From a virus, in the IMG/VR virus record IMGVR_UViG_3300029908_000103, positions 1 to 32,274 of that record: a stretch of 32,274 nucleotides of DNA; one strand, written 5' to 3'. Shown piece by piece: positions 5,459 through 24,278 of the stretch; within the stretch, counting starts at the first letter, position 1; each line of letters starts with the position of its first letter. The translations under genes and the position numbers were made by a program. The notes below the pieces were generated by a model, which was not told where the DNA came from, did no database searches, and was given only the letters and a program-made list of their open reading frames with translations.

Positions 5459-5473
5459 CAATCTTAATAGTAT
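5459..5473 (+). promoter_or_regulatory. Putative late promoter (CAATCTTAAT class)
   Basis: The site reads CAATCTTAATAGTAT, one of five exact CAATCTTAAT copies in the window. It lies in a 95-base gap with its end about 30 bases before the ATG at 5502 and points toward that gene. The other four copies sit upstream of minus-strand virion genes in the matching orientation. Promoter function is inferred from position and conservation. Confidence 0.6.
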
Positions 5474-5501
5474 CAAGTTCTTATAATAAAAAGGTGATTC
5501 T

Positions 5502-6443
5502 ATGAGATTTAGTTTAAGTATGTTCGCTAATGCCTTCTCAGACCGTAACGGCAGTGGATCTCCTAGCTTATCGAACTTCAAATGGAATCGCGATCTAACT
5601 AGTTTCCCGATCCAACAAGCTAATTCGAATCAATACTCCCTAGCTCCAGGTCAATCCCAAGCAGTATTCACTGGCGTTCGATCTATAACTCAAGATAATA
5701 CAACGACTTATAGCATCGCACCGGTCCCCGGTTCCACGGTATTATATTCCTTGACAGCTACTGGCGGTTTGCTTCCTAACTTTAGAACTCCTAGAGTTAT
5801 TGGAACAGACGCTACCAGTCAGTTTCTAGTAGTTCAAAATGGTCCAATTACTACTTTCACGAGCTCCGGCGGTGCAATAGCTAGTTTCAGCGGTATATCT
5901 GTAGGTGATCAAGTAAGCATTGGCAGTCAATTCAATGCCGCTAATCAAGGAACTTATCAAGTCATAGCTAATACGGCTACTAGTTTTACCATAGAGAATT
6001 TATTAGGCGCCTCAGAAGGCCCCATTACTCTTGGCTCCAGCTTTGCTTCTCAAATCGCCATATTCAGTGCCTTCGGCGTTCAAATAAGTGACGCCTTAAT
6101 GTTATCAAGTGGATTTTCCTTAGCAACTCTAGGAACTTACTTCGTTACTTCAGTTTTTGCTAACTCCTTACAATTTAGCAGCGCCAGCATTCTACCTACC
6201 GAAAGCAGTATCTTGACTGAGGTTATAGCTTATAGTTTTGCCAAGCAATGGGTCTACATAGAAAGCGATGCTCCTTGCGATATCTTGATCAACGGGACCG
6301 ATACTGCTCAAGTGGCTCCTTTTATATATAGTCCTAATCAGAAAAGAAACGGTATGTTCATGAGAACTTCACCGATTTGGTCCTTAAGTCTCACGAACAG
6401 TGGCATAGTTAATGCGAATGTTCTTATATTATCAATTGAGTAA
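5502..6443 (+). CDS. Virion structural protein with baseplate-type beta modules
   Basis: This is a 313-residue beta-rich, Ser/Thr/Gly-rich protein with no catalytic motif. An AAAGGTGA ribosome-binding site lies 6 bases before the ATG. About residues 125-165 contain ISVGDQVSIGSQF followed by NQGTYQVI, a module of roughly 45 residues that recurs in the large baseplate protein at the right edge (GDNITISAPF...NQGQFRVI and relatives). A second, more diverged copy follows (VQISDALMLSSGF...LGTYFVT). The C-terminal part (VYIESDAPCDILINGTD) resembles surface-exposed virion beta domains. It lies between terL and the portal and is driven by its own late-type promoter. A decoration, connector-associated or fibre-attachment role is possible; I do not recognise a named family. 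Confidence 0.6.
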   Translation: MRFSLSMFANAFSDRNGSGSPSLSNFKWNRDLTSFPIQQANSNQYSLAPGQSQAVFTGVRSITQDNTTTYSIAPVPGSTVLYSLTATGGLLPNFRTPRVIGTDATSQFLVVQNGPITTFTSSGGAIASFSGISVGDQVSIGSQFNAANQGTYQVIANTATSFTIENLLGASEGPITLGSSFASQIAIFSAFGVQISDALMLSSGFSLATLGTYFVTSVFANSLQFSSASILPTESSILTEVIAYSFAKQWVYIESDAPCDILINGTDTAQVAPFIYSPNQKRNGMFMRTSPIWSLSLTNSGIVNANVLILSIE

Positions 6444-6461
6444 TGATATAGTTATACATAT

Positions 6462-8252: not shown

Positions 8253-8254
8253 TT

Positions 8255-8800
8255 ATGTCAAATATAAACTATAAAAATAAGTATGAACAATTAAAAGCTA
8301 AGTATCTAAGTTCAGTTGATACGGCATGGCGTTTAGGCTTCGAAGCTGGTCTAAAAGAAGCTCAAATGGACAATGCAACTCAACAAGCACAACAAGCTCA
8401 GCAACAAGTTGCTCAAGCTCAACAAGCTCCAGGAACTGCAGTACCAGAAGCCGGTTCAACGGCTGCTCCTTCAGCTTCTTCTGCACCGACTGAAGAGACT
8501 CCTTCTGAACAAGCTCCTATGCAGCCAGAAAGCGGCTCAGAGCTTGATCAGCACATTAACAGACTAGAAGAACTAGTTCACAAATCTGAATTAAGTCCTA
8601 CGGATCTTATAAAAGCTTTAGAAGAAATCAGACTTCATAAAGAAGGTCATTTACATTTATCCTTGCCACAAGCTGACGAGAATACTAGGCAGTCTTTGGC
8701 TTTGCAAGAAAGAATTGTGAGTGACGTTATGAAGGGCTGGCAAGAAGAAGAAAACCGTGCTAAAAAGGACATCTTAAGTACTTTGGGCATTTTAAGCTAA
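8255..8800 (+). CDS. Small portal-adjacent protein with Q/A-rich linker (possible assembly/scaffold factor)
   Basis: This 181-residue hydrophilic protein has three parts. An N-terminal helix (YEQLKAKYLSSVDTAWRLGF) is followed by a low-complexity linker of Gln, Ala, Pro and Ser (about residues 45-95, with runs such as QQAQQAQQQVAQAQQAP). The C-terminal part is charged and helical (LDQHINRLEELVHKSELSP...). The start overlaps the portal end region (stop, 2 bases, ATG) with a GAGGAAG ribosome-binding site inside the portal gene, so the two are translated together. Size, helicity and place between portal and MuF protein fit a scaffolding or head-assembly protein, but no protease or scaffold signature is visible. 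Function is inferred from context only. Confidence 0.55.
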   Translation: MSNINYKNKYEQLKAKYLSSVDTAWRLGFEAGLKEAQMDNATQQAQQAQQQVAQAQQAPGTAVPEAGSTAAPSASSAPTEETPSEQAPMQPESGSELDQHINRLEELVHKSELSPTDLIKALEEIRLHKEGHLHLSLPQADENTRQSLALQERIVSDVMKGWQEEENRAKKDILSTLGILS

Positions 8801-8813
8801 GAAGGTAGGTTTT

Positions 8814-9542
8814 ATGCGTGACTTATCATCTGCTAATAAAGAATCTATTGCTTTAACTGTTGAAGATTTGTTCGACAAATTAGCTCTTGAATTCATTGGC
8901 AATATTCCTAAATTAAGACATAAGAAACATCTCATAATTTCAACCAAACCTAATTATGGGTTGGCGAATCTATTCGTACAATCTTTACGTAATACAAATC
9001 CTAATATATTTGAATCCGAAGCGTTAAAATCTATTTTGGATAATTCTTTAAGTTACATAGAATCATTAAAAAGCAAGACTAAAGCTGATATATTAGAAGG
9101 AATCGGCGCTTTAGCTAGAGAAGCTTCATTAAAAGGTGAATCTATATCGGGCGAGAAAGTGCAAGAGCTATTGCATAATTCATTGGATAAAGCTCGTTCT
9201 CATATGAAGACGATAGTTGATACTGAGAGTACCAAGGCTAGAAATATTGGTAAAGCATTAGATATCAAGAAAGTGGGATTAAGCGCTGGAGATATGGATC
9301 CAAGATGCTATTTCGTAATTACTAGAGATAATGTTACTTGTAAAGAATGCATTCGTTTACACTTGGACGAGGACGGCGTAACGCCTAGGATATGGAAATT
9401 CAGTGAACTTAAACAGGGTTATCATATACGTGGCGAAGATGTACCGTCAATGCTGCTGATGCACCCTAATTGTAGATGCGGCCTAGTATATTTAGCGCCT
9501 GGTTTTGGTTTTAAAGACGGAAAATTGACTTACATAGGTTAA
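8814..9542 (+). CDS. MuF-like minor head / head morphogenesis protein
   Basis: This 242-residue protein matches the phage Mu gpF / SPP1 gp7 class, which binds the portal and is packaged in the head. The N-terminal ~140 residues are helical. The diagnostic C-terminal part has DTESTKARNIG, then CKEC (C176, C179) and the terminal HPNCRC block (H217 to C222), a likely metal-binding arrangement. A good AAGGTAGG ribosome-binding site precedes ATG 8814. It is the last plus-strand gene of the head block. Its TAA stop (9540-9542) shares bases with the TAA stop of the opposing minus-strand gene, so the two genes meet tail to tail in the four bases TTAA with no space for a terminator. Confidence 0.85.
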   Translation: MRDLSSANKESIALTVEDLFDKLALEFIGNIPKLRHKKHLIISTKPNYGLANLFVQSLRNTNPNIFESEALKSILDNSLSYIESLKSKTKADILEGIGALAREASLKGESISGEKVQELLHNSLDKARSHMKTIVDTESTKARNIGKALDIKKVGLSAGDMDPRCYFVITRDNVTCKECIRLHLDEDGVTPRIWKFSELKQGYHIRGEDVPSMLLMHPNCRCGLVYLAPGFGFKDGKLTYIG

Positions 9543-10150
9543 GCGTCTACTAAAACATCACCTGTAATATCATCAACGATTACTGTTCCATCAATATTTG
9601 ATGTTAGAATAGAATCTACACTGAAACCTGAAGCGGAGCCGCCGATTGGTAATGAAGAACCTGCATCGATAACCCAGCCATTGCGGAACCACAGTCGATT
9701 CGTAGAAGTTGATACATCCGTGATCATCTTAGCGATTAAGAAAACTTCAAGATCAGCAGCGTCAAGTGCCGGAAGACCGGTAGCAGCAAGAACGGTCGTA
9801 TTAGCAGTTACTGTTCCGAGTGATCGATTTACAATCGCATACCACATGTCTCCTGGATTAAACGAATATACTGAAGCTGAAGTTGCGATCACACACCGAA
9901 TAGCTGGACCGCCTCCTAGGATTGAACTGAAATCTAAAGCAAGAGACGTGCCAGAAGAAAATGTGAGTTCTGTACCGGAAAAAGTAAGGATGCCTGAACC
10001 ATCCAGTAACATATTGTTATTGCCGAATAATTTGCCTAACTCAATATCAACTGTTGTTAAAACATTATCAAGAGTTTCGTTTGCCGAATTGCCTAATATA
10101 GGTAATTGAGGTCTTAAAACTGACTGACGTGCATCGAAATTTGTCGGCAT
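9539..10150 (-). CDS. Fibre- or spike-associated virion protein
   Basis: This 203-residue protein has beta-prone composition (TLTFSGTELTFSSG, SLGTVTANTTVLAATGLP) and no catalytic motif. The N-terminus (LPILGNSANETLDNVLTTVD) looks like a short helical attachment region. The rest resembles repetitive trimeric fibre-shaft or collar segments, and the C-terminus ends in a short DD-rich strand. An AGGAG ribosome-binding site precedes the ATG and a CAATCTTAAT promoter lies 24 bases upstream, isolated from the fibre genes by a terminator at 10197-10227. It is therefore probably a monocistronic late transcript. Tail-fibre or collar function is inferred from composition and neighbourhood. Confidence 0.55.
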   Translation of the reverse strand: MPTNFDARQSVLRPQLPILGNSANETLDNVLTTVDIELGKLFGNNNMLLDGSGILTFSGTELTFSSGTSLALDFSSILGGGPAIRCVIATSASVYSFNPGDMWYAIVNRSLGTVTANTTVLAATGLPALDAADLEVFLIAKMITDVSTSTNRLWFRNGWVIDAGSSLPIGGSASGFSVDSILTSNIDGTVIVDDITGDVLVDA

Positions 10151-10164
10151 AGAAATCTCCTGTA

Positions 10165-10184
10165 ATACTATATCATTAAGATTG
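10165..10184 (-). promoter_or_regulatory. Putative late promoter (CAATCTTAAT class)
   Basis: On the minus strand the site reads CAATCTTAAT followed by GATATAGTAT. The core ends 24 bases before the ATG at 10150. It directly follows the terminator of the previous transcript, a terminator-promoter junction. Confidence 0.62.
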
Positions 10185-10196
10185 CAGGTTAAAACG

Positions 10197-10227
10197 AAAA
10201 AAGGCCAGGATTTTCATCCCAGCCTTT
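10197..10227 (-). terminator. Rho-independent terminator
   Basis: On the minus strand a 12-bp stem (AAAGGC, a T-G and a G-T wobble pair, GGAT) closes a GAAA tetraloop and is followed by a run of six or more T. It ends the transcript carrying the genes from 11236 down to 10259. On the plus strand the stem is not followed by a U-run, so termination is directional. Confidence 0.8.
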
Positions 10228-10258
10228 ATAATACTTAACTAATTGATATTACTTATTT

Positions 10259-10432
10259 TTAAATAGAAGCCAAAGGTGAATTACCGCTGGCCAACCAAGA
10301 TAAGTATAATACGTAGTCGGAATTAGCTGGATCAGTAGGTATAAACGATATAATACTATTATCATCAATGATTTTAACCACTTTAGCTGAATCTAAACCT
10401 ATTATAGGGTCTTTAATTAGTTGAAATTGCAT
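10259..10432 (-). CDS. Small tail-fibre-associated protein (57 aa)
   Basis: This is a 57-residue reading frame with GGAG five bases before its ATG (10432-10430). It starts MQFQLIKDPI and ends SNSP-like in SWLASGNSPLASI, with a central FIPTDPANSDY. The pattern of a polar DPxNxDY followed by a YLxWLAxGNxP tail is one I know from short phage proteins and fibre C-termini encoded beside tail fibres. It may act in fibre assembly. It follows the fibre-tip segment by 8 bases and is the last gene before the terminator at 10197-10227. Confidence 0.7.
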   Translation of the reverse strand: MQFQLIKDPIIGLDSAKVVKIIDDNSIISFIPTDPANSDYVLYLSWLASGNSPLASI

Positions 10433-10440
10433 ATAATCTC

Positions 10441-11220: not shown

Positions 11221-11235
11221 TTAAAAACCTCATGT

Positions 11236-13749
11236 TTATTGATAATATTCCCAGACAATTATTTTTCCAGCACTTCCTTTAGCACCTGCCCCCGCTGATG
11301 TGCCAGTCCCAGCACTTCCCGCTGAACCACCGTCCGTTAACACGAAACTATATGAGTTAGATGGAGCGTCTATAATTGCTTTAAGCCAACCTCCGGCACC
11401 ACCTCCGGCACCACCGGCACCCGTACTCGATCCACTTCCACCACCGCCTCCACCACCACTATTTGGTTGACCAACCCCAGCCGCGGCGCCGAAACCTGAG
11501 GATCCATTCCCTGCACCACCAAAATAAGAACTTCCACCTTGTCCACCTGCCGCTTGTAATAATCCTGATGCATTGATAGCGGGAGCGCCATTGCCACCAT
11601 TTACTTGATCTCCTGGTTGACCTCCGAGAGAATTAGTACCTCCGGCGCCACCAGTAGTAGATGCACCACCTCCGGCACCAGCAGATAATAATGAAGTTCC
11701 AAATGTAGTTGCTGTGGAAGTGCCACCGGCGCCTGGAGATGTACCACCACCTTGACCACCACCACCTGGGCCCACAACTTCCACTTCTAAATACCTTGGT
11801 TTTCTAGGAGATGTGGGTAAATTATAAGTTCCAGCGCCGGTCACGGTCGTAAAAACTTGAACAGTTCTAGTTAAAAAAGTATTGGTAGTGACTTGGGTAG
11901 ATGAAATAGCCCCACTTAAACTAGTTGCTGGAAAATTTGTACAGTTAGATAAATTTCCAGAAGTAGGGGTACCAAGTAAAGGGGTTACTAATGTTGGAGA
12001 GGTAGCGAGAACTACAGAGCCTGAACCTGTGGTTGGAGCTGCACTGATCGCAGAGCCATTCCCCGATAGGATCCCCGAAATAGTGGTCGAGAGAGTGATA
12101 GCTGGGGTGCTTGTGGGATTTAAAACTGTACCTGCTAACCCGTTAGCAGGGGTTACCGAGACTGAAGTAACTGTTCCAGAAGTAGCTGGGGCGGCCCAAA
12201 TAGGCACTCCGCCGGATACAGTTAGTACGTTTCCAGTAGAACCTATAGCTAATCTTGAGGCTGTAGTTCCAGAAGAGCTATAGATAATATCGCCAGTCGT
12301 TGTGATCGGACTCAAAGCACTGAAAGCTGCGGCTGCCGTAACTTGTCCTGTACCGCCTTGAGCTATCGTAGCGGTTCCAGAAACATCTGTAAAAGCCGGT
12401 TGACTTAAAGCGGGAATGCCAGAAGTAGAAATACTGCTAATCCATTGATGAGATACGTTGGCAGCGGAACGTATGCCACCCAAAGTTGTAGCTGAAGGAT
12501 TAGGTAATTGAGATGCCGCTACTGAACCTGAAATATCTGTGAAAGCAGGTTGAGTAGAACTTGGAACACCGCTAGTAGATATAGCATTAATCCATTGACT
12601 TGTTACTGCTGCATAGCTTTCAATACCGCCTAAAGTTGTAGCTGAAGGATTCGGTAGTTGAGCTGCGCTTACAGTACCAGATATATCTGAAAATGCCGGT
12701 TGACTTAAGTGTGGCACTCCGCTAGTAGATATTGAATCTATCCATTGATGCGAGACCGATGCAGCCGATTTAACGCCACCTAAAGTGCTTGAACTTGGAT
12801 TTGGAAGATCTGCGCCAACTAAGGATCTGAAAGCTGGAATATCCATAGGACCGGAAACAGGTCCTGCGTATATAGTATTAGCGCTTTCAGCAGTCAAAGT
12901 AAGGGGAGCTTGCCAAGTAGGTAGGGCACTTGCTCCATTAGAAGTTAATACATAACCTGTAGATCCTAGTCCAGAAATTTGTTGCAAAATACCTGTAGAG
13001 GTAGTTCCACCGGCTAATAAAGCGTAAGGAGTTAAAGTATCTAAGCCCGTTCCACCTTGATCTGGAGAAAGTGGACCGGATCCTGGAGTTCCGGCAGTGT
13101 TGTTAGTGCCCATCATTTGGGAATCTACCCAAATTTGGGTCGTGCTCATTACTATACCGATTTTAAAAGCTGCAGTACTAACCCCTGTAGGGGCCGTAGT
13201 ACTAAAAGCACCGGCAGTTGTTAGCCAAACAGGATTGCCAACATCGGAAGAACTAAATGGAGTATCAGAAGACCCTAAAGTAAATATACCATAGGACTGA
13301 ACTGGGATGCTATCACCTGAAGTAACAGCGGTAGGAGATAATGCGATACCGATAGCCCAGAATTCGTCGAAAGATACTACGCCATCATCTGCAGCGTAGA
13401 CATCACTGGCTGTTTCTGATAAAGAATGCATGCCCCATCTTACTAGATAAGATGTATTTGCAGAAAAAGATTGACCTGCTACAAGATTATTTATTATAGA
13501 TGGACTTGAAGCTATTGAAGCCCAACTTAGATTGCCGGATCCGTCATTTTGAAGAACTGATAATGCACTACCTTGTGCCGATGGTAACGCTAAAGAATAA
13601 GAACTTGTAACTGCTGCAGCATTAAGAGTTACATTTCCAGAAGTAGAGCCATCAAACTGGATAGCTGAAACTCCTAAAGTATTGGTAGAAAGATCTACGG
13701 TTCTAGCAGCACCGTTAAGTAAATGTAAAAACTTTGAATAAACGCTCAT
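11236..13749 (-). CDS. Tail fibre with glycine-rich tip (837 aa)
   Basis: This is a long trimeric-type fibre. The N-terminus (SVYSKFLHLLNGAARTVDLS) is a segment shared with the fibres at 13880 and 18168 and probably attaches the fibre to the tail. Residues about 90-215 form a beta module, FSANTSYLVRWGM...TLGSSDTPFSSSDVG, that is also present at the C-terminus of the 13880 fibre. The shaft has repeated ~47-residue units with LPNPSATTLGGIES...SQWINAISTSG and QGGTGQ motifs. The C-terminal ~190 residues are Gly/Ser-rich (GGGGGGGSGSSTGAGGAGGG) and end in GKIIVWEYYQ, the pattern of glycine-rich receptor-binding tips. A GAGGAAG ribosome-binding site is present. A CAATCTTAAT promoter lies 51 bases before the ATG. 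The role is host recognition. Confidence 0.88.
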   Translation of the reverse strand: MSVYSKFLHLLNGAARTVDLSTNTLGVSAIQFDGSTSGNVTLNAAAVTSSYSLALPSAQGSALSVLQNDGSGNLSWASIASSPSIINNLVAGQSFSANTSYLVRWGMHSLSETASDVYAADDGVVSFDEFWAIGIALSPTAVTSGDSIPVQSYGIFTLGSSDTPFSSSDVGNPVWLTTAGAFSTTAPTGVSTAAFKIGIVMSTTQIWVDSQMMGTNNTAGTPGSGPLSPDQGGTGLDTLTPYALLAGGTTSTGILQQISGLGSTGYVLTSNGASALPTWQAPLTLTAESANTIYAGPVSGPMDIPAFRSLVGADLPNPSSSTLGGVKSAASVSHQWIDSISTSGVPHLSQPAFSDISGTVSAAQLPNPSATTLGGIESYAAVTSQWINAISTSGVPSSTQPAFTDISGSVAASQLPNPSATTLGGIRSAANVSHQWISSISTSGIPALSQPAFTDVSGTATIAQGGTGQVTAAAAFSALSPITTTGDIIYSSSGTTASRLAIGSTGNVLTVSGGVPIWAAPATSGTVTSVSVTPANGLAGTVLNPTSTPAITLSTTISGILSGNGSAISAAPTTGSGSVVLATSPTLVTPLLGTPTSGNLSNCTNFPATSLSGAISSTQVTTNTFLTRTVQVFTTVTGAGTYNLPTSPRKPRYLEVEVVGPGGGGQGGGTSPGAGGTSTATTFGTSLLSAGAGGGASTTGGAGGTNSLGGQPGDQVNGGNGAPAINASGLLQAAGGQGGSSYFGGAGNGSSGFGAAAGVGQPNSGGGGGGGSGSSTGAGGAGGGAGGWLKAIIDAPSNSYSFVLTDGGSAGSAGTGTSAGAGAKGSAGKIIVWEYYQ

Positions 13750-13795
13750 GTGATCTTCCTCATTATGTTATAATGATATAAACTTTGTTGTTATC

Positions 13796-13810
13796 GTACT
13801 ATTAAGATTG
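13796..13810 (-). promoter_or_regulatory. Putative late promoter (CAATCTTAAT class)
   Basis: The minus strand reads CAATCTTAATAGTAC, identical in its first ten bases to the other copies. It begins about 10 bases after the T-run of the terminator of the 13880 fibre gene and drives the 837-residue fibre. Confidence 0.6.
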
Positions 13811-13816
13811 TATTAA

Positions 13817-13854
13817 ATAAAAAGGGACCAGATCCTTTCGAAACAGGTCCCTTT
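13817..13854 (-). terminator. Rho-independent terminator
   Basis: The minus strand forms AAAGGGACC paired with GGTCCCTTT (9 bp) around a 16-base loop that contains TTTCGAAA, followed by TTATTT. It closes the 13880-16480 fibre transcript immediately before the next promoter. Confidence 0.75.
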
Positions 13855-13879
13855 AGAATTCATAGGTTAACTAATGAAA

Positions 13880-16480
13880 TTAATTGATACCTTGCATATC
13901 TGGCATGATAAACATCTTACTAGTAGTCTTAACCATACCGGCTTTCATTACAGCTTGTAATGAGGAAGAAGGAGCAGTAGTGCTAAAAGCACCTGATGCT
14001 GTTAAGAAAATTGGTTTTCCGATATCGCCAGCTGAGAAAGCTGTATCAGAAGATCCAAGAGAGTATTCGCCTAAGGACACTACTGAGATAGAGCCACCAG
14101 CGGAAACACCAGCTGCGCTGAAAGCTACGCCGATGATCCAGAATTTGTCCGCGGAAGTTGTATCATAGTCAGCTTTATAAACACTACCAGCTGTTTCACC
14201 AGTTATAGCGAAACGAACTAGGAAGCTGGTATTAGCTGCGAATGATTCACCAGCGATCTCCATATTGGAGACTAAAGGAGCTTGAGCTACAGAAGCTGCT
14301 GTTCCTGCGCCGCCTACGATCGTTACTTGATCGAATGCGCCAGTAGCAAGTTTAGCTGCTGTTACTGAAGCTGCTGCTAATTGTGAAGTTCCAACGCCTA
14401 ATGCTTTGATTTCTAACGTAGAACCAGAACCAGATTGGTCTAAGGTTACGCCATCAGTTACTGTTCCTAATTTAGAAGCAGTTACTGCACCAGCAGCGAT
14501 CGTTACAGCACCGGTACTAGCGATAGTTACATCACCAGATACTGCTACTGCTGTAGCTACTGAACCAGCACTACCAACAAAGATATCAGCTGGAGCTAAT
14601 GTTTTCGTTAGTTTGCTATCGATCTGTGTTTGAATCGCACTAGTTACACCAGATACATATCCAAGTTCAGTAGATGTAACTGCAGAAACGCTAATTACGC
14701 CAGAACCATCAGAAACAAGAGCTAAAGAAGGAGATAGAGCGGCTAATTTCGAAAGAGCAATAGCTGCTGAAGCTGAGATATCAGCATTGACGATATCACC
14801 TGTTAAAGCTAACTTGCTGTAAGCAATGGCAGCTGAAGCTGAGATATCAGAGTTAACGATATCACCAGTTAAAGCTAACTTGCTGTAAGCGATAGCTGCT
14901 GAAGCGCTAATTTGTGTGTTGCTAATTCCACCGGCTTTTACTTCTAGAGTTGAACCAGAACCAGATTGATCTAGAGTAATGCCGTCAGTTACTGTCCCTA
15001 ATTTTAGGGCAGTTACTGCGCCAGCGGCGATAGTAGCTGCTTTTGATTGAGATCCACTAGCTGGACCTGCGGTGATATCGCCGGTTAATTGATAGATAGC
15101 GTTAACTGTTACAGCGCCTTGTGCTCCGTTAACAGATTGGACGCCTGCAGCTGGAGTTACTAATTGCCATACGCCAAGTGCAGAGGAATAAATTACCAAA
15201 TCACCGATTTGGAAATTGATCATTGATGGATCAGATAACCCTGCAACTGCGCTTGCATCAGCTGCGGAAACCCAATATACGTTACCGTTTGTTCCAGTAC
15301 CGTCAGAAAGAGCTGGGGTATTAGTATTTGGATTCCAAGAACCTTGGTATTCCATTACTACTGAAGGTAACTGAGATATTGGGATCTTACCGCTACCATC
15401 TAATGTAGCAACGCCATTAGCAGCTGCTAATTGGTCCCATATTAGTGGTTGGCCTGTAGCCGTAGGAGTTGGTAGACCGTCGATTTCATTGCTGCCCATG
15501 TGTAGGACGCCAGACATCGTTCCACCGGAAAGACTTAACTTACCGCTGAATTGTGTTTGGATGGCTGAAGTTACGCCAGATACATACCCTAATTCCGTTG
15601 AAGTAACTGAAGAAGCTACTAAGAAACCGGAAGAGTCGGTCGCTACTGCCTTAGAAGCTGTTAAAGCTGCTAATTTATTAACAGCGATAGCTGCGCCGGA
15701 AGCGATGTCAGCGTTTACGATGCTAGCCGCAAGAGCTAACTTGCTGTAAGCGATAGCTGCGCCAGAAGCGATGTCAGCATTAACGATAGATCCTGTTAAG
15801 GCTAACTTACTGTAAGCAATAGCCGCTGAAGTTGAAATGTCAGCATTAACGATATCGCCAGTTAAGATCAACTTGGAATAAGCAATCGAACCTGCTAAGT
15901 CGGCGTTTAGAATGCTGCCGGTTAATGCTAATTTGCTATAAGCAATAGCTGCTGAAGTTGAAATGTCAGCGTTAACGATGTCGCCGGTTAAAATCAACTT
16001 AGAATAAGCGATTGAACCTGCTAAGTCGGCGTTTAGGATACTGCCAGTTAGAGCTAACTTGCTGTAAGCAATAGCGGCGCCAGAAGCGATATTGGAGTTT
16101 GTTAAGTTTCCAAGATCCACGTTTGCGTCAGGCATCGTGATCGTTCTGGTCGTGCCAGTGGCAATCCCGGCAGCTGAGAACTTGATTTTCTTAGTACTAT
16201 CCGATACATTGTAGATATTAAAAGCTGAATCGCTAAAAGTACCAGCAGCAGATAATGAGCCTAAAGCAGTATCAATAGCTGCTAAAGCGCCTTCAACTGT
16301 TGCAGTTAAAGGTGTAAAGTTAGAATAACCACCAGCTATACCGATGCTAGCGGAACCGGTAGAAGCGCTTAATAAAGAGCCTCCAACGATTAGAGCTCCT
16401 ACGGATAATGTATTTGATGAGAGATCAATCTGACGCTGGACGCCATTAATGAGTGAGGAAAATTTGCTATATGTAGCCAT
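13880..16480 (-). CDS. Tail fibre with tandem AYSKLALTG repeats (866 aa)
   Basis: The N-terminus (ATYSKFSSLINGVQRQIDLS) is the shared attachment segment. The shaft is built from tandem 21-residue units of the form AIAYSKLALTGDIVNADIS, arranged in two blocks: roughly residues 135-280 and 530-590. Both blocks are followed by ELGYVSGVTSAIQTQ, a coiled-coil-like trimerisation segment common in phage fibres. A spacer with GAVTVNAIYQLTGDITAG lies between them. The C-terminus (FAANTSFLVRFAI...YSLGSSDTAFSAGDIG) is a beta module of ~120 residues found near the N-terminus of the 11236 fibre. There is no Gly-rich tip, so the module itself may be the receptor-binding or capping end. It has a GAGGG ribosome-binding site, an 80-base leader and a degenerate late-promoter motif at 16565-16574. 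It ends in a clear terminator. Confidence 0.87.
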   Translation of the reverse strand: MATYSKFSSLINGVQRQIDLSSNTLSVGALIVGGSLLSASTGSASIGIAGGYSNFTPLTATVEGALAAIDTALGSLSAAGTFSDSAFNIYNVSDSTKKIKFSAAGIATGTTRTITMPDANVDLGNLTNSNIASGAAIAYSKLALTGSILNADLAGSIAYSKLILTGDIVNADISTSAAIAYSKLALTGSILNADLAGSIAYSKLILTGDIVNADISTSAAIAYSKLALTGSIVNADIASGAAIAYSKLALAASIVNADIASGAAIAVNKLAALTASKAVATDSSGFLVASSVTSTELGYVSGVTSAIQTQFSGKLSLSGGTMSGVLHMGSNEIDGLPTPTATGQPLIWDQLAAANGVATLDGSGKIPISQLPSVVMEYQGSWNPNTNTPALSDGTGTNGNVYWVSAADASAVAGLSDPSMINFQIGDLVIYSSALGVWQLVTPAAGVQSVNGAQGAVTVNAIYQLTGDITAGPASGSQSKAATIAAGAVTALKLGTVTDGITLDQSGSGSTLEVKAGGISNTQISASAAIAYSKLALTGDIVNSDISASAAIAYSKLALTGDIVNADISASAAIALSKLAALSPSLALVSDGSGVISVSAVTSTELGYVSGVTSAIQTQIDSKLTKTLAPADIFVGSAGSVATAVAVSGDVTIASTGAVTIAAGAVTASKLGTVTDGVTLDQSGSGSTLEIKALGVGTSQLAAASVTAAKLATGAFDQVTIVGGAGTAASVAQAPLVSNMEIAGESFAANTSFLVRFAITGETAGSVYKADYDTTSADKFWIIGVAFSAAGVSAGGSISVVSLGEYSLGSSDTAFSAGDIGKPIFLTASGAFSTTAPSSSLQAVMKAGMVKTTSKMFIMPDMQGIN
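15825..16076 (-). repeat. 126-bp tandem duplication inside a fibre gene
   Basis: Two adjacent 126-base units (15825-15950 and 15951-16076) encode the same 42 residues (two 21-residue fibre units each). By eye they differ at about fifteen bases, all silent. A run of shorter, more diverged 63-base units continues on both sides (about 15690-15825) and again at about 14740-14910. Confidence 0.8.
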
Positions 16481-16559
16481 TGTAAGGCCCTCTTAAGTTG
16501 TGGAGTTTAGATATACGAGCTTACTAGTCACCTACTCCATAGGAACTGAGCATCTCGTA

Positions 16560-16574
16560 ACGTAAATAAGATTA
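16560..16574 (-). promoter_or_regulatory. Degenerate late-promoter-like motif
   Basis: The minus strand reads TAATCTTATT, eight of ten matches to CAATCTTAAT. It lies 84 bases before the 866-residue fibre ATG, in the only place where the other fibre genes have an exact copy. Weak support on its own. Confidence 0.4.
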
Positions 16575-16581
16575 GGTCATG

Positions 16582-16623
16582 AAAAATAGTTCTCTTAACT
16601 ATGAGGTAGTTAAGGATATTTTT
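16582..16623. terminator. Possible bidirectional terminator hairpin
   Basis: CTTAACTA pairs with TAGTTAAG around a TGAGG loop (16594-16614), flanked by AAAAATA and TATTTTT on either side. It lies downstream of the 464-residue fibre stop (16692). The stem is AT-rich, so termination strength is uncertain. Confidence 0.45.
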
Positions 16624-16626
16624 ATG

Positions 16627-16679
16627 TAATATATTGAAATAATAGAATATATTATTTCAACTTATCATTCAATATATTA
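16627..16679. other. Overlapping AT-rich inverted repeats
   Basis: TTGAAATAATA pairs perfectly with TATTATTTCAA (16634-16660, 5-base loop). The outer TAATATATTGAA (16627-16638) also pairs with TTCAATATATTA (16668-16679). The two helices share TTGAA, so they exclude each other. The block lies just after the 464-residue fibre stop codon. Confidence 0.55.
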
Positions 16680-16691
16680 GAGATATAGAGT

Positions 16692-18086
16692 CTAGATTTC
16701 AGCGTCTGCTGTCCAGTTACCGCTGAACAAAATATTAGAGCCTATACTAGAAGTACTTAATCCACTAGCCGTTACATTAAAAGACGTAATAGTTGCTGAG
16801 GGCGTTACCGGCTCACTATTGCTAACTCCGCCAGTTAGATTGTAATATGACCAATCGCCAACATTAGAACTATTTGGATCATAGGCCGTAATAGTTGGGG
16901 GTTGTCTTTTAGTTGTCTTAAACATAACTGAAGAGCTTACAGCTGCTGAAGTGCTAAAGTAAAATCCGCTAATAAGTTGAGCAGTACCACTTATGTTAGC
17001 TGCTGGAGTAACTCCTATATTAAAAGACTTTTCATAGAATCTTTGACAAGCGATTAATTCACCGGCATAGTTGCCGCCAGCTTTTTGAAATGGAGCTGCT
17101 GTAGAACCAATATTAAGCATTGCTCCAGCTATTGTAAGCCCATTGCCAGAAGTATATAAGGTATTAGAAGCGGTAGTAGGATATATTTGAACGCCAATTG
17201 AACCAGATGAATTAATAGATCCTGGTATAGATACATTATTCAAAGTACAGTATGTATAGCTTCCGTTCGTAATAGTAAATGCAGCCGAAGTAATTACGGT
17301 TTGAGTTTTAGTTTCGGTATTTGCGTATGTTACAGCTATAGTTACTTGGGTAACCGCAGCTACACCCTGTACCCATACGCCGAAAGAAACTTTGCTATCT
17401 AAAGCTAACATAGAAGTTTTATTTTCAACTACTTGGCTTATATTCATGTTTGGATTAGAGCAACCAGCGCCATAAGTAAAATTCATAGCGAGACCTACAC
17501 CTGGAACGGTCGCGGCCGGAGCACCTTGGCTAAAGTTAAGAGTTCCACCAGTACCGTTGACGGTAAACCATCTATCGGCTATGTAGACGTTTGAAGATGA
17601 AGTAGAGATAGAAGTACCTCTTTGAAAGAAATCGAATCCACCATTTATTAATAGATTTTGATTGAAAGGCAAATCTGCCCCAGTTAAAGCTCTAAATGTT
17701 GGGGCTGCGGCTGAACCTGAAGTAGGACCGGCAAAGATAGTGTTGGCTGATTGATTTGAAAAGCCACCGGTAGTCCAGGTAGGTATTCCACCTACTACTG
17801 TCAATACTTGACTGGTAGATCCGATAGGCAGACTTGTCAAAGTATTAGTAGCAGTAGAGAAATACTCTATAGCACCGTTAGTAGAACCTGAAGCTGCGCT
17901 AGAAATCTGCTCCCATAAAGGGGTCGTATTACAAAGTATGAAGAATTGTTGGGTATCAGTTTGATACGCTACCTTACCGATATCAGTGGATTGAAACCCA
18001 GATGCAGCCAATCTAGCTGTTGCGTTAGCATAAGTAAATGCCTGTACGACGTGCATTGCTGAACCGGTGACGACTGAATGAAACAT
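16692..18086 (-). CDS. Tail fibre with carbohydrate-binding-like C-terminus (464 aa)
   Basis: The N-terminal module (YANATARLAASGF...DIGKVAYQTDTQQFFIL) is typical of phage fibre-anchor proteins. A short linker with SANTIFAGPTSGSAAAPTFR and LTGADLP is shared with the 11236 and 18168 fibres. The central sequence NLLINGGFDFFQRGTS, followed by YIADRWF, is the hallmark opening of carbohydrate-binding-like modules of phage fibres. The C-terminus (AAPFQKAGGNYAGELIACQRF...) is the tip, homologous to the orphan segment at 10441-10920. It has a GAGGG ribosome-binding site, and an exact CAATCTTAAT promoter ends 28 bases before the ATG. It is likely a host-recognition protein, separately transcribed from the neighbouring fibres. 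Confidence 0.87.
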   Translation of the reverse strand: MFHSVVTGSAMHVVQAFTYANATARLAASGFQSTDIGKVAYQTDTQQFFILCNTTPLWEQISSAASGSTNGAIEYFSTATNTLTSLPIGSTSQVLTVVGGIPTWTTGGFSNQSANTIFAGPTSGSAAAPTFRALTGADLPFNQNLLINGGFDFFQRGTSISTSSSNVYIADRWFTVNGTGGTLNFSQGAPAATVPGVGLAMNFTYGAGCSNPNMNISQVVENKTSMLALDSKVSFGVWVQGVAAVTQVTIAVTYANTETKTQTVITSAAFTITNGSYTYCTLNNVSIPGSINSSGSIGVQIYPTTASNTLYTSGNGLTIAGAMLNIGSTAAPFQKAGGNYAGELIACQRFYEKSFNIGVTPAANISGTAQLISGFYFSTSAAVSSSVMFKTTKRQPPTITAYDPNSSNVGDWSYYNLTGGVSNSEPVTPSATITSFNVTASGLSTSSIGSNILFSGNWTADAEI

Positions 18087-18109
18087 AAATTAAACCCTCT
18101 ATATACCTT

Positions 18110-18124
18110 ATATCATTAAGATTG
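18110..18124 (-). promoter_or_regulatory. Putative late promoter (CAATCTTAAT class)
   Basis: The minus strand reads CAATCTTAATGATAT, matching the copy at 10165-10184 over 16 bases. It drives the 464-residue fibre gene. Confidence 0.62.
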
Positions 18125-18167
18125 TCTTCTAAAATCTATTTTAGCTATACGAATAGTGTTACATAAC

Positions 18168-20216
18168 CTATTGATAATGCTCGGTTACAATTATTATTCC
18201 GGAAGCACCATTTCCACCTGCGTTTCCACCGGCACCGGCCGCACCACCGGCTCCCCCTGAACCAACTGCAAAGCTATACGTGGAAGCAATTGATGACAAT
18301 ATTACAAATTTAAGATATCCACCTGAACCACCACCACAGCCCGTGTAAACACCAGAAGTCGCACTTGCACCGCCACCACCACCACCAGAGCCACTATTAG
18401 CGACTGCATTAGTACCGGCGGAGTTAGTACTTGAGATACCAGCGCCACCGTAAGGGGAATGTCCACCGATCCCACCGGCCGCATATACACCACCACTGGT
18501 TATCATAGTTGTACCCATACCATAACTGCCTGCTTGATTAACTAAAGCAGTATGTCCCGAACCTAACGTATTAGTACCTCCGGCACCCCCAAAAGATGCT
18601 CCATTAGTTTGACCTGAACCGCCACCTGCAGTTGAACCACCAAATGTTGTATTACCTGCATTACTTCCTGATTGAGTTCCACCTGATGTACTAGAGCCAG
18701 ATCCACCGGATCCACCGCCAATCATTTCGACTGTAACATAGACCGGACCTCTAGGAGAAGTAGATGTAGTAAAAGTACCGCTGCCCGATGTGTATACCGT
18801 GATTTTTGGTGCTATAAATGTCGAAGTAGTCACTTGAGAAGAAGACACAGTACTTGAGATATTAGAGAAAGAAGGCTGAGCGCTTACCGGTACACCCGAA
18901 GTCGAGATCGATGTTAAAAACTGATTAGATACCGCAGTATAGGATTCTACTCCACCTAAAGTAGTCGCAGAAGGATTTGGAAGATCTGCGCCGACTAAAG
19001 ATCTAAAAGCAGGAGCCGCAGCTGATCCAGAAGTAGGACCTGCGAATATAGTATTCGCCGAAGCCGTGGTAGCTCCGGTACCGCCGTTAACTACTGCGAG
19101 AGTTCCTGTAACGGCACTTGAATTACTTAAAGTTACAGCGCCCCAAGACGGTAAATCGCTGCCGTTAATCACCATTACTTGATTTGAAGTACCGATCGCT
19201 AACCTATTATTAGTGCCGGAAGCATAATAGATAGTGTCGCCTGCGGTAGTGGTTGGTGCTAAAGCATTGAAAGCAGCTGAAGCTGTTGATTGCCCAGTAC
19301 CTCCATTGGATATACCTAAAATACCAGAGACTGCATTCCCAGCAGATAAATTAACTGTGCTCCAAATCGGCAATCCTGTTATATTTGAAACTGTAAGAAC
19401 ATTGAACCCAGAACCGATACCTAATCTAGTTGTAGCTACACCACTAGTAGCGTAAGAAATATCACCGGCGGTAGTAAACCCAGAAAGAGCAGCTAAGGCT
19501 GCAGAAGCGGTAGTTTGTCCCGAACCACCATTAGCTATTGCTAATGCGCCTGTAACAGCACTAGAACTACTTAATGTTACAGCGCCCCAAACTAATGTTG
19601 AACCATTACTTGTAAGTACTTGATTAGAAGTACCTAAAGCTAATCTAGCGTTTACCGTGGAATAATATAAAAGATCGCCAGCAGTAGTTAAAGGAGATAA
19701 AGCTCCAAAAGCTGCTGAAGCTGTAGTTTGTCCTGTTCCGCCTTGTGAAATTCCCAAGGTACCGGAGATATCTGAAAAAGCTGGCTGAGTAGAAGAAGGG
19801 ACACCAGAAGTAGAGATAGCATTAATCCATTGATGAGCTACTGAAGCGTAACTTTCAATGCCACCTAAAGTTGTAGCAGAAGGATTTGGAAGATCTGCTC
19901 CGACTAAGGATCTAAAAGTTGGAGTAGTAGCAGAACCGATCGTAGGGCCTGCGAAAACTAAGTTTGCACTTTCATTGGCCAAGGTAACAGCAAAAGTACC
20001 TGAGGTAGTAATTGGCGAGCCGGATACGTTAAATATCGAGGGTACGGTTAAAGCAACGGAAGTTACACTTCCAGAACCCGAACTAGTAAAAGCGCTACCG
20101 CCTGCGCCGTTAGCGGTTAGCACATATCCAGACGTAGCGGCACCTGAGCTTATATCAGTTCCCTGAATTTGCTCTTGTCTTTGCACTCCGTTTACTATTC
20201 TAGAAAATTCGCTCAT
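18168..20216 (-). CDS. Tail fibre with glycine-rich tip, second copy (682 aa)
   Basis: The ATG at 20216 was chosen because it gives the shared fibre N-terminus (MSEFSRIVNGVQRQ); the longer reading starts at a TTG. The shaft has many GGTGQTTASAAF...LSP units with LATGSSNQVL-type spacers, plus two LVGADLPNPSATTLGG units nearly identical to those of the 11236 fibre. The C-terminus is rich in GGSGSGG segments and ends in GIIIVTEHYQ, paralogous to the tip of the 11236 fibre. It follows the small upstream gene by 4 bases (TAG-TATT-ATG) and is the last gene of the operon that begins at 24226. No strong terminator was seen after it. Function: receptor-binding fibre. Confidence 0.87.
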   Translation of the reverse strand: MSEFSRIVNGVQRQEQIQGTDISSGAATSGYVLTANGAGGSAFTSSGSGSVTSVALTVPSIFNVSGSPITTSGTFAVTLANESANLVFAGPTIGSATTPTFRSLVGADLPNPSATTLGGIESYASVAHQWINAISTSGVPSSTQPAFSDISGTLGISQGGTGQTTASAAFGALSPLTTAGDLLYYSTVNARLALGTSNQVLTSNGSTLVWGAVTLSSSSAVTGALAIANGGSGQTTASAALAALSGFTTAGDISYATSGVATTRLGIGSGFNVLTVSNITGLPIWSTVNLSAGNAVSGILGISNGGTGQSTASAAFNALAPTTTAGDTIYYASGTNNRLAIGTSNQVMVINGSDLPSWGAVTLSNSSAVTGTLAVVNGGTGATTASANTIFAGPTSGSAAAPAFRSLVGADLPNPSATTLGGVESYTAVSNQFLTSISTSGVPVSAQPSFSNISSTVSSSQVTTSTFIAPKITVYTSGSGTFTTSTSPRGPVYVTVEMIGGGSGGSGSSTSGGTQSGSNAGNTTFGGSTAGGGSGQTNGASFGGAGGTNTLGSGHTALVNQAGSYGMGTTMITSGGVYAAGGIGGHSPYGGAGISSTNSAGTNAVANSGSGGGGGGASATSGVYTGCGGGSGGYLKFVILSSIASTYSFAVGSGGAGGAAGAGGNAGGNGASGIIIVTEHYQ

Positions 20217-20220
20217 AATA

Positions 20221-20670
20221 CTATAATTCCCCAACAACCGATAAAAGGAGTTGGATGTCTAAAAGTGAAGGATTATATTCGTTTTCAACTACTACGCCGA
20301 TTAACAAAACAAAGTCTCCTGCTACGAAACCATTAGCTCCAGTATTAGGCTTAATGTTAGTTAAACCACCAGAGGCTGATACATATACTATATCACCAGA
20401 GCTAAATCCGGTTGATAGGTTTTCTAATCGGCCCGAATCGATGACAGGACCGCTCTGGCCGTTAGGAATATCGGCGTAGGTCAGACCGATCATAGCAGTA
20501 GCGATAGTTTCCGTACTGACCGATATAGGTATGATATGACTAGCACTATTAATAGCGACCGGAGTACCTTTAACGAGAGTTGAGCCAGTTTCATTAACAA
20601 AATTAGTTACAACTTGTCTGGAAGATCCCGTACCCTGTAAAGAAGCGAATGATATCGGTGAATAGCTCAT
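20221..20670 (-). CDS. Fibre-associated beta-barrel protein (capping/decoration type)
   Basis: The 149-residue reading from ATG 20670 was chosen because GGAG lies seven bases before it and it overlaps the upstream stop as ATGA; the longer reading begins upstream. The sequence is a single beta module: VTNFVNETGSTLVKGTPVAI, IGLTYADIPNGQSGPV, GFSSGDIVYVSASGGLT. It resembles small beta-barrel decoration proteins (DUF2190-like pattern of KGTPV, G.V, GD.VY and GGLT). It also resembles the module seen in the 11236 and 13880 fibres. It lies between a homing endonuclease and a fibre in one operon. It may cap, join or decorate a fibre; the exact partner is not visible. Confidence 0.55.
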   Translation of the reverse strand: MSYSPISFASLQGTGSSRQVVTNFVNETGSTLVKGTPVAINSASHIIPISVSTETIATAMIGLTYADIPNGQSGPVIDSGRLENLSTGFSSGDIVYVSASGGLTNIKPNTGANGFVAGDFVLLIGVVVENEYNPSLLDIQLLLSVVGEL

Positions 20671-21515
20671 ACGGTAACTCCTAAGAATTCCAAACATTTA
20701 GGTACACAAGCGTCTTTATCTTCGATCCAATTTTCTTCTTTAATATGAAGGATTTCAATGCCTTGAGATCTAAAGTAGTCATCTTTAATCTGATGATACA
20801 TTACTATATCGCTATCGGGCCAAGTAATCTTCTTTTTTCTTAAAGCTTTAAGTGAATGCCAGTAGATTCCATCGAATTCTATACCTTTAGATATTTCTGG
20901 TACAAAAATATCGATTTCAAAACCTTTTATATGAGGTTTATTGTCTATATGTATATTAGCATGTCTTAAAGATTTTGCTGTTGGTAAAAATGATTGAATT
21001 ATATTATGCAACTCTTTTTCTTGAAGAGAAACAGTCCTGGATTTTTTCATGTGTTTACAAATATCGTCCATGATTCCTAAACGTAGTGCCGCATCATAGG
21101 CACCGGAAGAATTATCCTCGAACTCTCCTCTAGAGTTAAATCTTAGAGCTTCTATTCTTAATGTAGTAAGATTCCAGTATCCATTAGGCATTCTTGTTGA
21201 TAACATATGTTGACATATCTTATCTATAATTTTATATCGCAAGGCCGCTTTATAAGCTCCAGGAGAACCATTTTCAAATGCTACTCTAGAATTATACTTT
21301 AAAGCCTCTTCTTGTAGAGTACTCGGATTCCATTTAATGGGGCGAATAAGATTATTTAGAGGATCTTTCAATATCATATGGGAACAGATTTCATTTAATA
21401 TGCCTAATTTAATTGCCTGTTTATAAGCGGCAGAAAAAGTCTTTTTAAACTCTGTTCTAGAATTACAAGTTAAAGCTGATTCTTTGATCTGCAATTCAAA
21501 CCATATCTTTTTCAT
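20667..21515 (-). CDS. Homing-endonuclease-like protein with three helical repeats and Vsr/EDxHD-type nuclease
   Basis: The ATG at 21515 (MKKIWFEL) was chosen because a GGAG lies nine bases before it and it matches the start of the paralogue at 26636. Residues about 5-160 contain three ~50-residue units with the pattern EALKYNSR.EF...S..AY..A...GI.D.IC.HM. The last ~110 residues are a Vsr-like nuclease with FEIDIFVPEISKGIEFDG, YWHS, YHQIKDDYFRSQGIE and a closing HIKEENW, the acidic/His arrangement of EDxHD-type homing endonucleases. The gene overlaps the upstream stop (TAATG) and the downstream start (ATGA). That is unusually tight for a selfish gene and makes its expression translationally coupled to virion genes. 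The related gene with five repeats is at 26636-27745. Confidence 0.82.
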   Translation of the reverse strand: MKKIWFELQIKESALTCNSRTEFKKTFSAAYKQAIKLGILNEICSHMILKDPLNNLIRPIKWNPSTLQEEALKYNSRVAFENGSPGAYKAALRYKIIDKICQHMLSTRMPNGYWNLTTLRIEALRFNSRGEFEDNSSGAYDAALRLGIMDDICKHMKKSRTVSLQEKELHNIIQSFLPTAKSLRHANIHIDNKPHIKGFEIDIFVPEISKGIEFDGIYWHSLKALRKKKITWPDSDIVMYHQIKDDYFRSQGIEILHIKEENWIEDKDACVPKCLEFLGVTV

Positions 21516-24226
21516 TAGAATATACTCCAAAAAGCACCATTACTAATGAGACTATAACTGACCCATTGTACGTTTGTTAACTGAGTATTGGATCCATCTA
21601 TTAAATCGGATCCATTTCCCTTAACTGTTAAAGTATTGAGAGTACTGTCGATTTTCTTAACATAAAATATCTGACCCGTAGATGAGCTGGCGGTAGGTAA
21701 TGTAATGATAATATTTCCACTAGTACAATCTACTAAAATAAAGCAATCAGAAAGCATTATTGTATAATTACTAGTCTTAGTGGAAATCGAAATAGGACCA
21801 CCTGCTGCATCAGCGCCAGGATTTCCAGCGGGACCTTGAGGGCCTATGGGACCCGGTTCCGGAGTCCCACCCGAACCTCCTCCGGGTCCGCCAGTCACAC
21901 CTATTCTAAACTCAAGAACATCGCCCACAACTAAAGTTTGTAGGATTTCGATCTGATTTGAAGTCGTACCAGGAGCGCCAACTTCGGACCAGTCAACACT
22001 TAAAACTAAATATTGACCGTTTAAGAAGACTTGTAATCCTCCTAAACCAACGGTATATCTTTGTGGAGCATTGCCTAGTCTGGAGTTATTCGGCAGAGTG
22101 ATTAAAGTAGTAGCCGAAATAGGTCCAGCTAGAGAAGTTGGAGGAGTAGCGCCTGTTAATACGATATTAACCGTTTGATCATAGCAAGGCTCATCTAACA
22201 ATGATGCAATAATGCCCATTGCTTTATCTAGCTCTTTAATAGCTAAAGTTAAATTGGAACCATCAATAATACTATAGTTACCGACACCGGTCCCGCTTTG
22301 ATTTGTAGTAACCGTAAATGGTGTGCCTACATCAAAGTTCGAAGACGCAATCGTTACACCTGCGCTAGTATTGGTTACAATTATTGTATCAGTATTAGGA
22401 TTTGGCTGTTGGACCGCTAAGAAGTCATCAGCACTTGTACCGTTTAGTCCTGTAGTAATCAAAGCGGCAACTTGAGCAGCTGTCATTGAAGTTGTAATAT
22501 CTACTTCGATTCCTAAAGTAGTATAAGGAGGAGCTGGATCGACGCCAGTTCCGTTTACTTTAAACCAGACATAATACTTTCTGAAGTTACCGGAGCTATT
22601 GATTAAGAAATATTGGCCCGGTGAAATAGTGGAACCGATGCCGGTTACTATTTGAGTAATCTGAGATACGGAGCCAGGATTTAATGCGGAAACATATTGT
22701 GGCGCATAAGCGGTTTCAATTGGAGAACCGATATATTGCAGTACAGTTTGAGCGGTGGTGTCAGAAATTTGACGGTCTTCACCCATCTCTAATTCGGCAC
22801 CTAAGAACCGAATATAAATGTTAGGGATGGAACCGCCGTTGTCCGCACGCATGAACAACCAGAACACGTCGGCTCCAGCCGGTACTAGCCCTCTGGAAGT
22901 AATTTGAATCGCTCTAGGATCGCCAACGGGAGTTGCACTTACGTAATAACTGCCGAAAGCATACAAAGCTAAGGAAGTAACTGTTTGATAATAAGTTGTA
23001 GTTAAAGTAACTTGAGAAGGAGAATTGACTGTTAAGATCTGATAATATTCAGCATCAGTATCGGTTGCGATTTTAATCCAATCGCCAGCTATTAAATTTG
23101 TAGTCCAACTTACCGCACCTACTGAAGTGACGATCGCGCTTGAGATTGTGAATATTAATTCTGGTGAAATTGTAGCGCCGCGGGTTAGAGTTATATAGGC
23201 TACTTGATCATCGGTTAATATTAAATTAGAAGAAGTTGAATTGGCGTCTAATTCATAATTTAATTCAGATCCAATAACTTTAATAAAGATCGGCTGATCC
23301 CAATTTAGCTGCCCAGCAACTGTCGGAACGATTGGTGGAAAAGTTGGAAGAATACCGTGCGCAATGGAACCTTTACCTGTAACTACTGTATTGGCGAGAT
23401 CCTCTCTTAATGAAGACAAGGATCCATCAGTCCCAGCAGAGAACCAAAAAGGGGTTCCTTTGATCTCTTGAACGGAAGTCATTATAGCTGACATCCACGA
23501 TTTGAGGTTATCTAACGCTTTATCGCCGCCGCTAAAAGGATTAACTGAGTCATCGGTAGAAATAATCGGATTCGCCGTACGTCCTTCTGGCCATGGGTAG
23601 GTGTACAGAGGATTTGGGGTTAACCCACCGGTTCCTAGAGTAAATAACATTGGACGGATATCTTCGATCGATATTACGTTATTACCAGCATCGGTTTGAA
23701 CTATTGCAATAGGTAAAAAGTGAGAGGCAGGAGTTACATTCGATATATTGATAGTATAAGAAAGAATTATAGCGCTTGGAGCCGTCGACGTTATCTCAGA
23801 ATCAGTAGTGACATCCCAAAAATAGGTAGGGACACTAGAACTTGCTTCAACACTTCTTGTTAATTCCAACGATACGTAATTATATGAACTAGGGGAAAAC
23901 GCTCCGAGGACTATTGGATTTGTGGCAGCATTTAGCTGTTGAACAGGAGTTCCTACTGGGACCAAATAAAATGTACCGCTGACTGAGGATAAATAATGTA
24001 ATACAGCGCCAGGATCGACCGTCATTGTCAGAGCACTAGAAGCTCCACCAATAGCATTGGCCATGTTAATTTCGAAACCGCGTAGAACGTAAGAATTATT
24101 CGTCCCAAGGACGAGGGAGGCCATTAACTCATCAAAATCATTAGAGGTAGCCGATTCTATTGAAAGCATCGCTGGAAGATCTATACGTTCGGAACTTAGA
24201 AAATTCTGGCGCCTTATAACAGACAT
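21515..24226 (-). CDS. Large tail/baseplate structural protein with collagen-like segment (903 aa)
   Basis: The N-terminal ~250 residues (SVIRRQNFLSSERIDLPAML, YVLRGFEIN, VDPGAVLHYL, SIEDIRPMLF) resemble phage tail or baseplate wedge proteins that anchor fibres. About residues 540-640 hold GQYFLINSSGN and YYVWFKVNGTGVDPAPP, a module that recurs in the baseplate protein at the right edge. At residues about 791-809 is a collagen-like GPIGPQGPAGNPGAD stretch. The C-terminal ~95 residues (ISTKTSNYTIMLSDCFILVD...ITLPTASSSTG) look like a trimeric fibre-tip domain. An AGGA ribosome-binding site is present and a CAATCTTAAT promoter ends 42 bases upstream. It is the first gene of the operon running to 18168. 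Confidence 0.8.
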   Translation of the reverse strand: MSVIRRQNFLSSERIDLPAMLSIESATSNDFDELMASLVLGTNNSYVLRGFEINMANAIGGASSALTMTVDPGAVLHYLSSVSGTFYLVPVGTPVQQLNAATNPIVLGAFSPSSYNYVSLELTRSVEASSSVPTYFWDVTTDSEITSTAPSAIILSYTINISNVTPASHFLPIAIVQTDAGNNVISIEDIRPMLFTLGTGGLTPNPLYTYPWPEGRTANPIISTDDSVNPFSGGDKALDNLKSWMSAIMTSVQEIKGTPFWFSAGTDGSLSSLREDLANTVVTGKGSIAHGILPTFPPIVPTVAGQLNWDQPIFIKVIGSELNYELDANSTSSNLILTDDQVAYITLTRGATISPELIFTISSAIVTSVGAVSWTTNLIAGDWIKIATDTDAEYYQILTVNSPSQVTLTTTYYQTVTSLALYAFGSYYVSATPVGDPRAIQITSRGLVPAGADVFWLFMRADNGGSIPNIYIRFLGAELEMGEDRQISDTTAQTVLQYIGSPIETAYAPQYVSALNPGSVSQITQIVTGIGSTISPGQYFLINSSGNFRKYYVWFKVNGTGVDPAPPYTTLGIEVDITTSMTAAQVAALITTGLNGTSADDFLAVQQPNPNTDTIIVTNTSAGVTIASSNFDVGTPFTVTTNQSGTGVGNYSIIDGSNLTLAIKELDKAMGIIASLLDEPCYDQTVNIVLTGATPPTSLAGPISATTLITLPNNSRLGNAPQRYTVGLGGLQVFLNGQYLVLSVDWSEVGAPGTTSNQIEILQTLVVGDVLEFRIGVTGGPGGGSGGTPEPGPIGPQGPAGNPGADAAGGPISISTKTSNYTIMLSDCFILVDCTSGNIIITLPTASSSTGQIFYVKKIDSTLNTLTVKGNGSDLIDGSNTQLTNVQWVSYSLISNGAFWSIF

Positions 24227-24263
24227 GTTTTCGGTCCTATATTAGTTTGAGTGACTTAACTCT

Positions 24264-24278
24264 ATCTTATTAAGATTG
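24264..24278 (-). promoter_or_regulatory. Putative late promoter (CAATCTTAAT class)
   Basis: The minus strand reads CAATCTTAATAAGAT. It drives the 903-residue structural gene and lies in a divergent intergenic region whose other side carries a sigma70 promoter. Confidence 0.6.

Follow-up and report, generated by a model that had tools for sequence, protein, structure and literature searches.

Very probably, the 10-mer CAATCTTAAT switches on the genes for particle building in phages related to Myxococcus phage Mx1 (PMC10720576), and it is likely that in the phage studied here it forms the -10 element of late promoters read by a truncated phage sigma factor. A phage late promoter, as proposed in the preliminary description of this DNA, is the best-supported reading, since dozens of distant relatives carry the motif ahead of orthologous late genes, and since it is class-specific in Mx1. 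Also, it stands at a preferred fixed distance from a subset of start codons, which fits a -10 element at leaderless genes. The group using this type of box consists of large Mx1-related phages, most of them uncultured.

Genomic Context

The window (the whole stretch of DNA analyzed, 32,274 nucleotides) is a 32 kb virus record and covers part of the genome of a large Mx1-related phage. It carries GroEL, TerL, portal, head morphogenesis, fiber and endolysin-like genes, together with several homing endonucleases. Megablast comparison with phage records gave no match for the window, and its relatives were reached through protein searches. The nearest isolate is Mx1 itself, with a genome of 169,621 bp (TerL 33%, portal 42%), while longer viral contigs encode TerL and portal proteins 59% identical to those of the window. 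In contig L008, both proteins are 100% identical to the window's, and this contig reaches about 3 kb further left.

Several side observations were made on this gene content. The GroEL-like gene at 69-1755 is interrupted in the window, where it occupies two frames, and forms a single intact frame of 593 amino acids in the near-identical L008, so that the split is either an assembly error or a recent frameshift. HNH/homing-endonuclease-like genes were found at 1765-3540, 20667-21530 and 26636-27751. The fiber-like genes within 11236-20237 have internal repeats in common, a pattern that suggests duplication or recombination among tail fibers.

Candidate Late Boxes in the Window

Five exact copies of CAATCTTAAT occur in the window (0.24 expected; maximum of 2 in 100 dinucleotide shuffles). 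Their coordinates and strands agree with those of the preliminary description, and all five are intergenic and in sense orientation. The range given there of 24-51 bases before the start was also exact, the gaps between 10-mer and start codon being 33, 24, 51, 28 and 42 nt. The first putative -10 box (5459-5468, plus strand) precedes 5502-6443, a conserved plus-strand gene located between TerL and portal, which is orthologous to the Mx1 7617 gene and has no named domain. The other four boxes and their genes are on the minus strand. The second (10175-10184) precedes 9539-10150, a gene with no clear family match, and directly follows an intrinsic terminator at 10200-10227 (minus strand), 15 nt upstream. 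The third (13801-13810) also comes directly after an intrinsic terminator (13819-13851, minus strand; hairpin GGGACC...GGTCCC and T-run), and lies before 11236-13749, a fiber-like gene with a weak tail-fiber match only and with the repeats of its fiber-like neighbors. The fourth (18115-18124) precedes the tail-fiber gene 16692-18086 (phrog_4492 tail fiber protein, E = 1.2e-27). The fifth (24269-24278) precedes 21515-24226, the orthologue of Mx1 139197 in the baseplate/endolysin block, and the motif is also present at the orthologues in Mx1 and in the relatives G001 and G003.

All five downstream genes had been called structural. This label was borne out for 16692-18086 by tail-fiber profile matches; the rest of it was partly inferred. 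A weaker copy had also been reported before the fiber gene 13880-16480 (minus strand). It corresponds to TAATCTTATT at 16565-16574 on the minus strand, which has two mismatches and lies about 90 nt from the start; its TAATCTT core is a variant used in relatives, and we retain it as a candidate weaker late box. When two mismatches to CAATCTTAAT were allowed, no enrichment was seen in the window (69 vs. 61), so that within the window the signal sits in the tight motif only. Similarly, the looser form YAATCTTWA was not enriched there (6 vs. 3.4), and its weight therefore rests on position and on the relatives. Terminators precede two of the five sites of the window, but in the clade as a whole they were not significantly more frequent ahead of the motif (p = 0.09).

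By contrast, host-like promoters were found before other genes of the window. One of them, TTGACT-N17-TATAAT with an extended -10 (TG) and 11/12 matches, lies at 24382-24410 (plus strand) before the non-virion gene 24432-24836. The other, TTGACT-N18-TATAAT with an extended -10, was read directly from the sequence; it lies at 27764-27793 (minus strand) and gives the homing-endonuclease gene 26636-27751 its own host-type promoter.

Conservation and Class Specificity

The clade consensus is (G)YAATCTTWA, with YAATCT as its core. As read from the aligned sequences, the conserved part is YAATCT(T)WA, which is shorter than the 10-mer first described. Several relatives contain few exact copies of CAATCTTAAT, and the shorter core is needed to follow the motif in them, and GC-rich relatives retain CAATCT with altered flanks. 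AATCTT showed a sense-strand upstream excess in G001 (18 vs. 4.1 expected), G003 (12 vs. 2.6) and part of G010 (5 vs. 0.6). When 2.9 million viral contigs were scanned with nothing but the motif, as the 16-mer CAATCTTAATGATATA, 42 stretches were returned; two of them came from the long contigs G009 and G010, both of which carry the sigma factor gene known from Mx1. Conversely, 80 loci were gathered by homology to this Mx1-type sigma, and CAATCTT occurred upstream of their genes 51 times in sense and 10 times in antisense orientation (6.2 expected).

Orthologues of gene 5502-6443 were present in 55 loci. After removal of redundancy, 45 of 48 had YAATCT in the 75 nt before the gene (2.0 expected; maximum of 5 over 200 shuffles). 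YAATCT was at chance level upstream of six control families, namely TerL, portal, sigma, helicase, GroEL and calcineurin-like. In G001, copies of the motif lie upstream of homologues of the prohead protease, baseplate, 7617, 139197 and 23137 genes, and none was found before homologues of polymerase, RecA, SSB, ribonucleotide reductase or sigma.

In Mx1, YAATCT sites are located upstream of the sheath, tailspike, baseplate, portal and 7617 genes, among others. With late blocks delimited by us from the annotation, and the minus strand being mostly early, intergenic regions containing YAATCT numbered 8 of 20 in the late blocks vs. 0 of 74 on the minus strand (Fisher p = 1.1e-6). Several virion genes, for example that of the major capsid protein of Mx1, have no YAATCT site of their own, so that their transcription must start at promoters further upstream. 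In the prohead protease gene of Mx1 (L081:13002-16721), a YAATCT box lies inside the annotated start and an ATG follows 7 nt downstream (13023), which suggests that the start codon was annotated too far upstream.

TGATATA was the other motif enriched upstream in the loci fetched with the sigma. TGATAT was found upstream of 27/60 sigma, 21/59 helicase and 23/54 GroEL genes vs. 2/50 orthologues of gene 5502, the opposite of the YAATCT pattern. TGATATA-N8-ATG is in excess as well (for example L091:9985, and also in other low-GC relatives). From these sequence patterns, TGATATA probably marks promoters of early or middle genes, some of which also appear to be leaderless, and the distribution of the two motifs suggests that transcription proceeds in a cascade, with the sigma being produced from TGATATA-type promoters and then activating those of the YAATCT type. 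These data also bear on the possibility that CAATCTTAAT is a repressor or activator binding site overlapping ordinary promoters. Two sites of the window do read CAATCTTAATGATATA, in which a TGATATA element comes right behind the box, as such an overlap would predict. However, the clade logo shows no conserved second element at a fixed spacing, and TGATAT and YAATCT hardly ever mark the same gene families. We regard this alternative as very improbable, and as the least probable of those considered.

Spacing and Promoter Architecture

Distances were taken from YAATCT to ATG codons opening long frames. Most sites lie 15-45 nt upstream of the start, many of them with a Shine-Dalgarno sequence. A particular spacing, YAATCT-N7-ATG, was in excess both in Mx1 (9 vs. 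0.0) and in the other contigs (20 vs. 3.0). Once redundancy was removed, 27 such sites remained, compared with 0-9 for ten permuted motifs (average about 4), three of which reached counts of 8-9. A Shine-Dalgarno sequence was present at only 1 of the 27 N7 sites vs. 40 of the 105 sites located 15-25 nt from the start. The simplest reading of this excess, combined with the near absence of Shine-Dalgarno sequences, is that the mRNA is leaderless, its ATG being at +1. This would place the YAATCT box at -13 to -6, i.e., as a -10 element. Our data thus suggest leaderless mRNAs at a subset of genes; in Mx1, the candidate leaderless starts include 7617, 13023, 36563, 75289 and 121405. The aligned sites contained one strong block only, and no -35 block.

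The same spacing could point to a signal acting at the RNA level, such as a translation enhancer, an unusual ribosome-binding site or a processing site in the leader, as the motif is always in sense orientation near start codons and 27 sites stand exactly 7 nt before an ATG. We find this very improbable, because most sites are 15-45 nt away with a Shine-Dalgarno sequence at many of them, because the motif is mostly absent before operon-internal genes such as those of TerL and portal, and because two sites of the window come directly after terminators.

A Putative Sigma Factor for the Box

The obvious candidate, and the probable reader of the YAATCT motif, is a phage sigma lacking region 4.2. 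The annotation of Mx1 lists 2071-3078 as a putative sigma factor, and this protein matched sigma-70 region 2 weakly. An alignment of 57 members gave a profile match to RpoD (E = 6.6e-10) that covers regions 2 to 4.1 and ends at E. coli residue 566. The fold, predicted from contig-derived sequences (pLDDT 84), aligns to sigma-70 and SigA, and its last residue is the equivalent of the same E. coli residue 566. The VIA-align Z of about 12 to sigma-70/SigA is attainable by chance for helical folds; the matches listed were all sigma or RNA polymerase entries, and T4 gp55 was absent among them. Taken together, profile and fold match sigma-70 from region 1.2 to 4.1. The protein stops immediately short of the region 4.2 helix-turn-helix, and many relatives end at the same point. 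On the strength of sequence and model, this sigma is without an intact region 4.2, and a factor truncated in region 4.1 should not read a -35 box, which accords with the lack of a -35 block in the aligned promoters.

Mx1 alone carried this type of sigma among 50,697 phage records searched. The gene is absent from the window, and L008 breaks off within the gene that, in relatives, comes after sigma; a sigma gene in the window phage is therefore predicted from synteny. The small conserved protein encoded at L008:2-253 has relatives that closely follow the sigma gene in 44 of the 80 sigma loci. Multi-subunit phage RNA polymerase was found in none of 7 long or complete genomes, in which positive controls matched, and the host core enzyme is thus presumed to be used. 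The control of the search for T7-type phage RNA polymerase gave no match, so this search carries no weight.

Another reader of the late promoter can be envisaged, either a host alternative sigma or host RNA polymerase with a phage activator. Our link between sigma and motif is indeed inferred and not direct; the two travel together within one clade, so their co-occurrence is no independent proof of reading. Also, T4 late promoters likewise require a co-activator and a clamp (PMC2988020). Nevertheless, a host sigma possessing region 4 would leave a -35 block, and none is seen. In addition, phages whose GC contents range over about 37-56%, and which thus probably infect diverse hosts, have kept the motif along with a dedicated phage sigma. 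We consider this alternative unlikely.

Under the favored scheme, with the phage sigma as reader, host-type or TGATATA-type promoters would first drive the early and middle genes, including that of the sigma. This sigma-70 relative, which keeps regions 1.2 to 3 and ends in region 4.1, should be unable to read a -35 box. Together with the host core RNA polymerase, it would recognize YAATCTTWA at -13 to -6, and transcription of the virion genes would begin about 7 nt downstream of the box, the start codon being the first transcribed codon at a subset of genes (leaderless mRNA). If true, it would be unusual for virion genes to be translated without a leader. The motif could also be used to find late genes, to correct start codons, as for the prohead protease of Mx1, and to recognize uncultured members of the group.

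Comparison with Known Promoter Systems

The preliminary description knew of no named promoter with this core, and our literature searches agree. No paper naming a YAATCT promoter was found in the literature searched, which does not cover all journals, and a search for CAATCTTA gave unrelated sequence matches only, among the matches listed. As far as searched, the motif is undescribed.

Phage-specific late motifs are known from the promoters of the non-virion RNA polymerases of giant phages (AR9, phiKZ) (PMC7618050). The present box would likewise be a phage-specific late motif, but theirs require a phage multi-subunit polymerase, of which none was found in the 7 genomes mentioned above. Compared with host sigma-70 promoters, the box would have the same position relative to the start and, in the leaderless register, AATCTT keeps the A at -11 and the T at -7. 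Unlike them, YAATCT sites have another hexamer and no TTGACA, and host-type promoters serve other genes of the window (24432, 26636).

The promoters of phages phiEco32 and 7-11 (tAATGTAtA; TGATGT core) are read by a phage-encoded sigma (PMC4331800). They resemble those described here in having a -10-like, phage-specific motif of roughly 9 bp before middle and late genes (PMC4331800), but their sequence differs, and the search of 50,697 phage records with the Mx1-type sigma returned no phiEco32 or 7-11 record.

The closest parallel concerns the T4 late promoters, in which a TATAAATA box at -13 to -6 is read by gp55 with gp33 and gp45 (PMC1524935, PMC2988020). In both systems, a short single box lies about one helical turn upstream of the start, with no -35 element, before virion genes (PMC1524935, PMC2988020), and the register of -13 to -6 proposed for YAATCT is the one reported for T4 (PMC1524935). 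Both also follow a split-sigma logic, with a phage sigma without a -35-binding domain (PMC2988020), a feature predicted here from sequence and fold. Unlike in T4, the box is YAATCTTWA, which does not conform to the TATAAATA consensus, many of the sites are apparently leaderless, and the sigma is longer, its match to sigma-70 extending from region 1.2 to 4.1, while only region 2 served for modelling gp55 (PMC2988020). If our reading is true, this would be a further phage sigma that dispenses with -35 recognition, derived apparently from a nearly full sigma-70 architecture and not from gp55. On balance, we lean toward the view that, in this mostly uncultured clade, a sigma-70-derived factor devoid of region 4.2 reads the -35-less YAATCTTWA box, with part of the virion genes leaderless, as a system independent of the T4 gp55 lineage.
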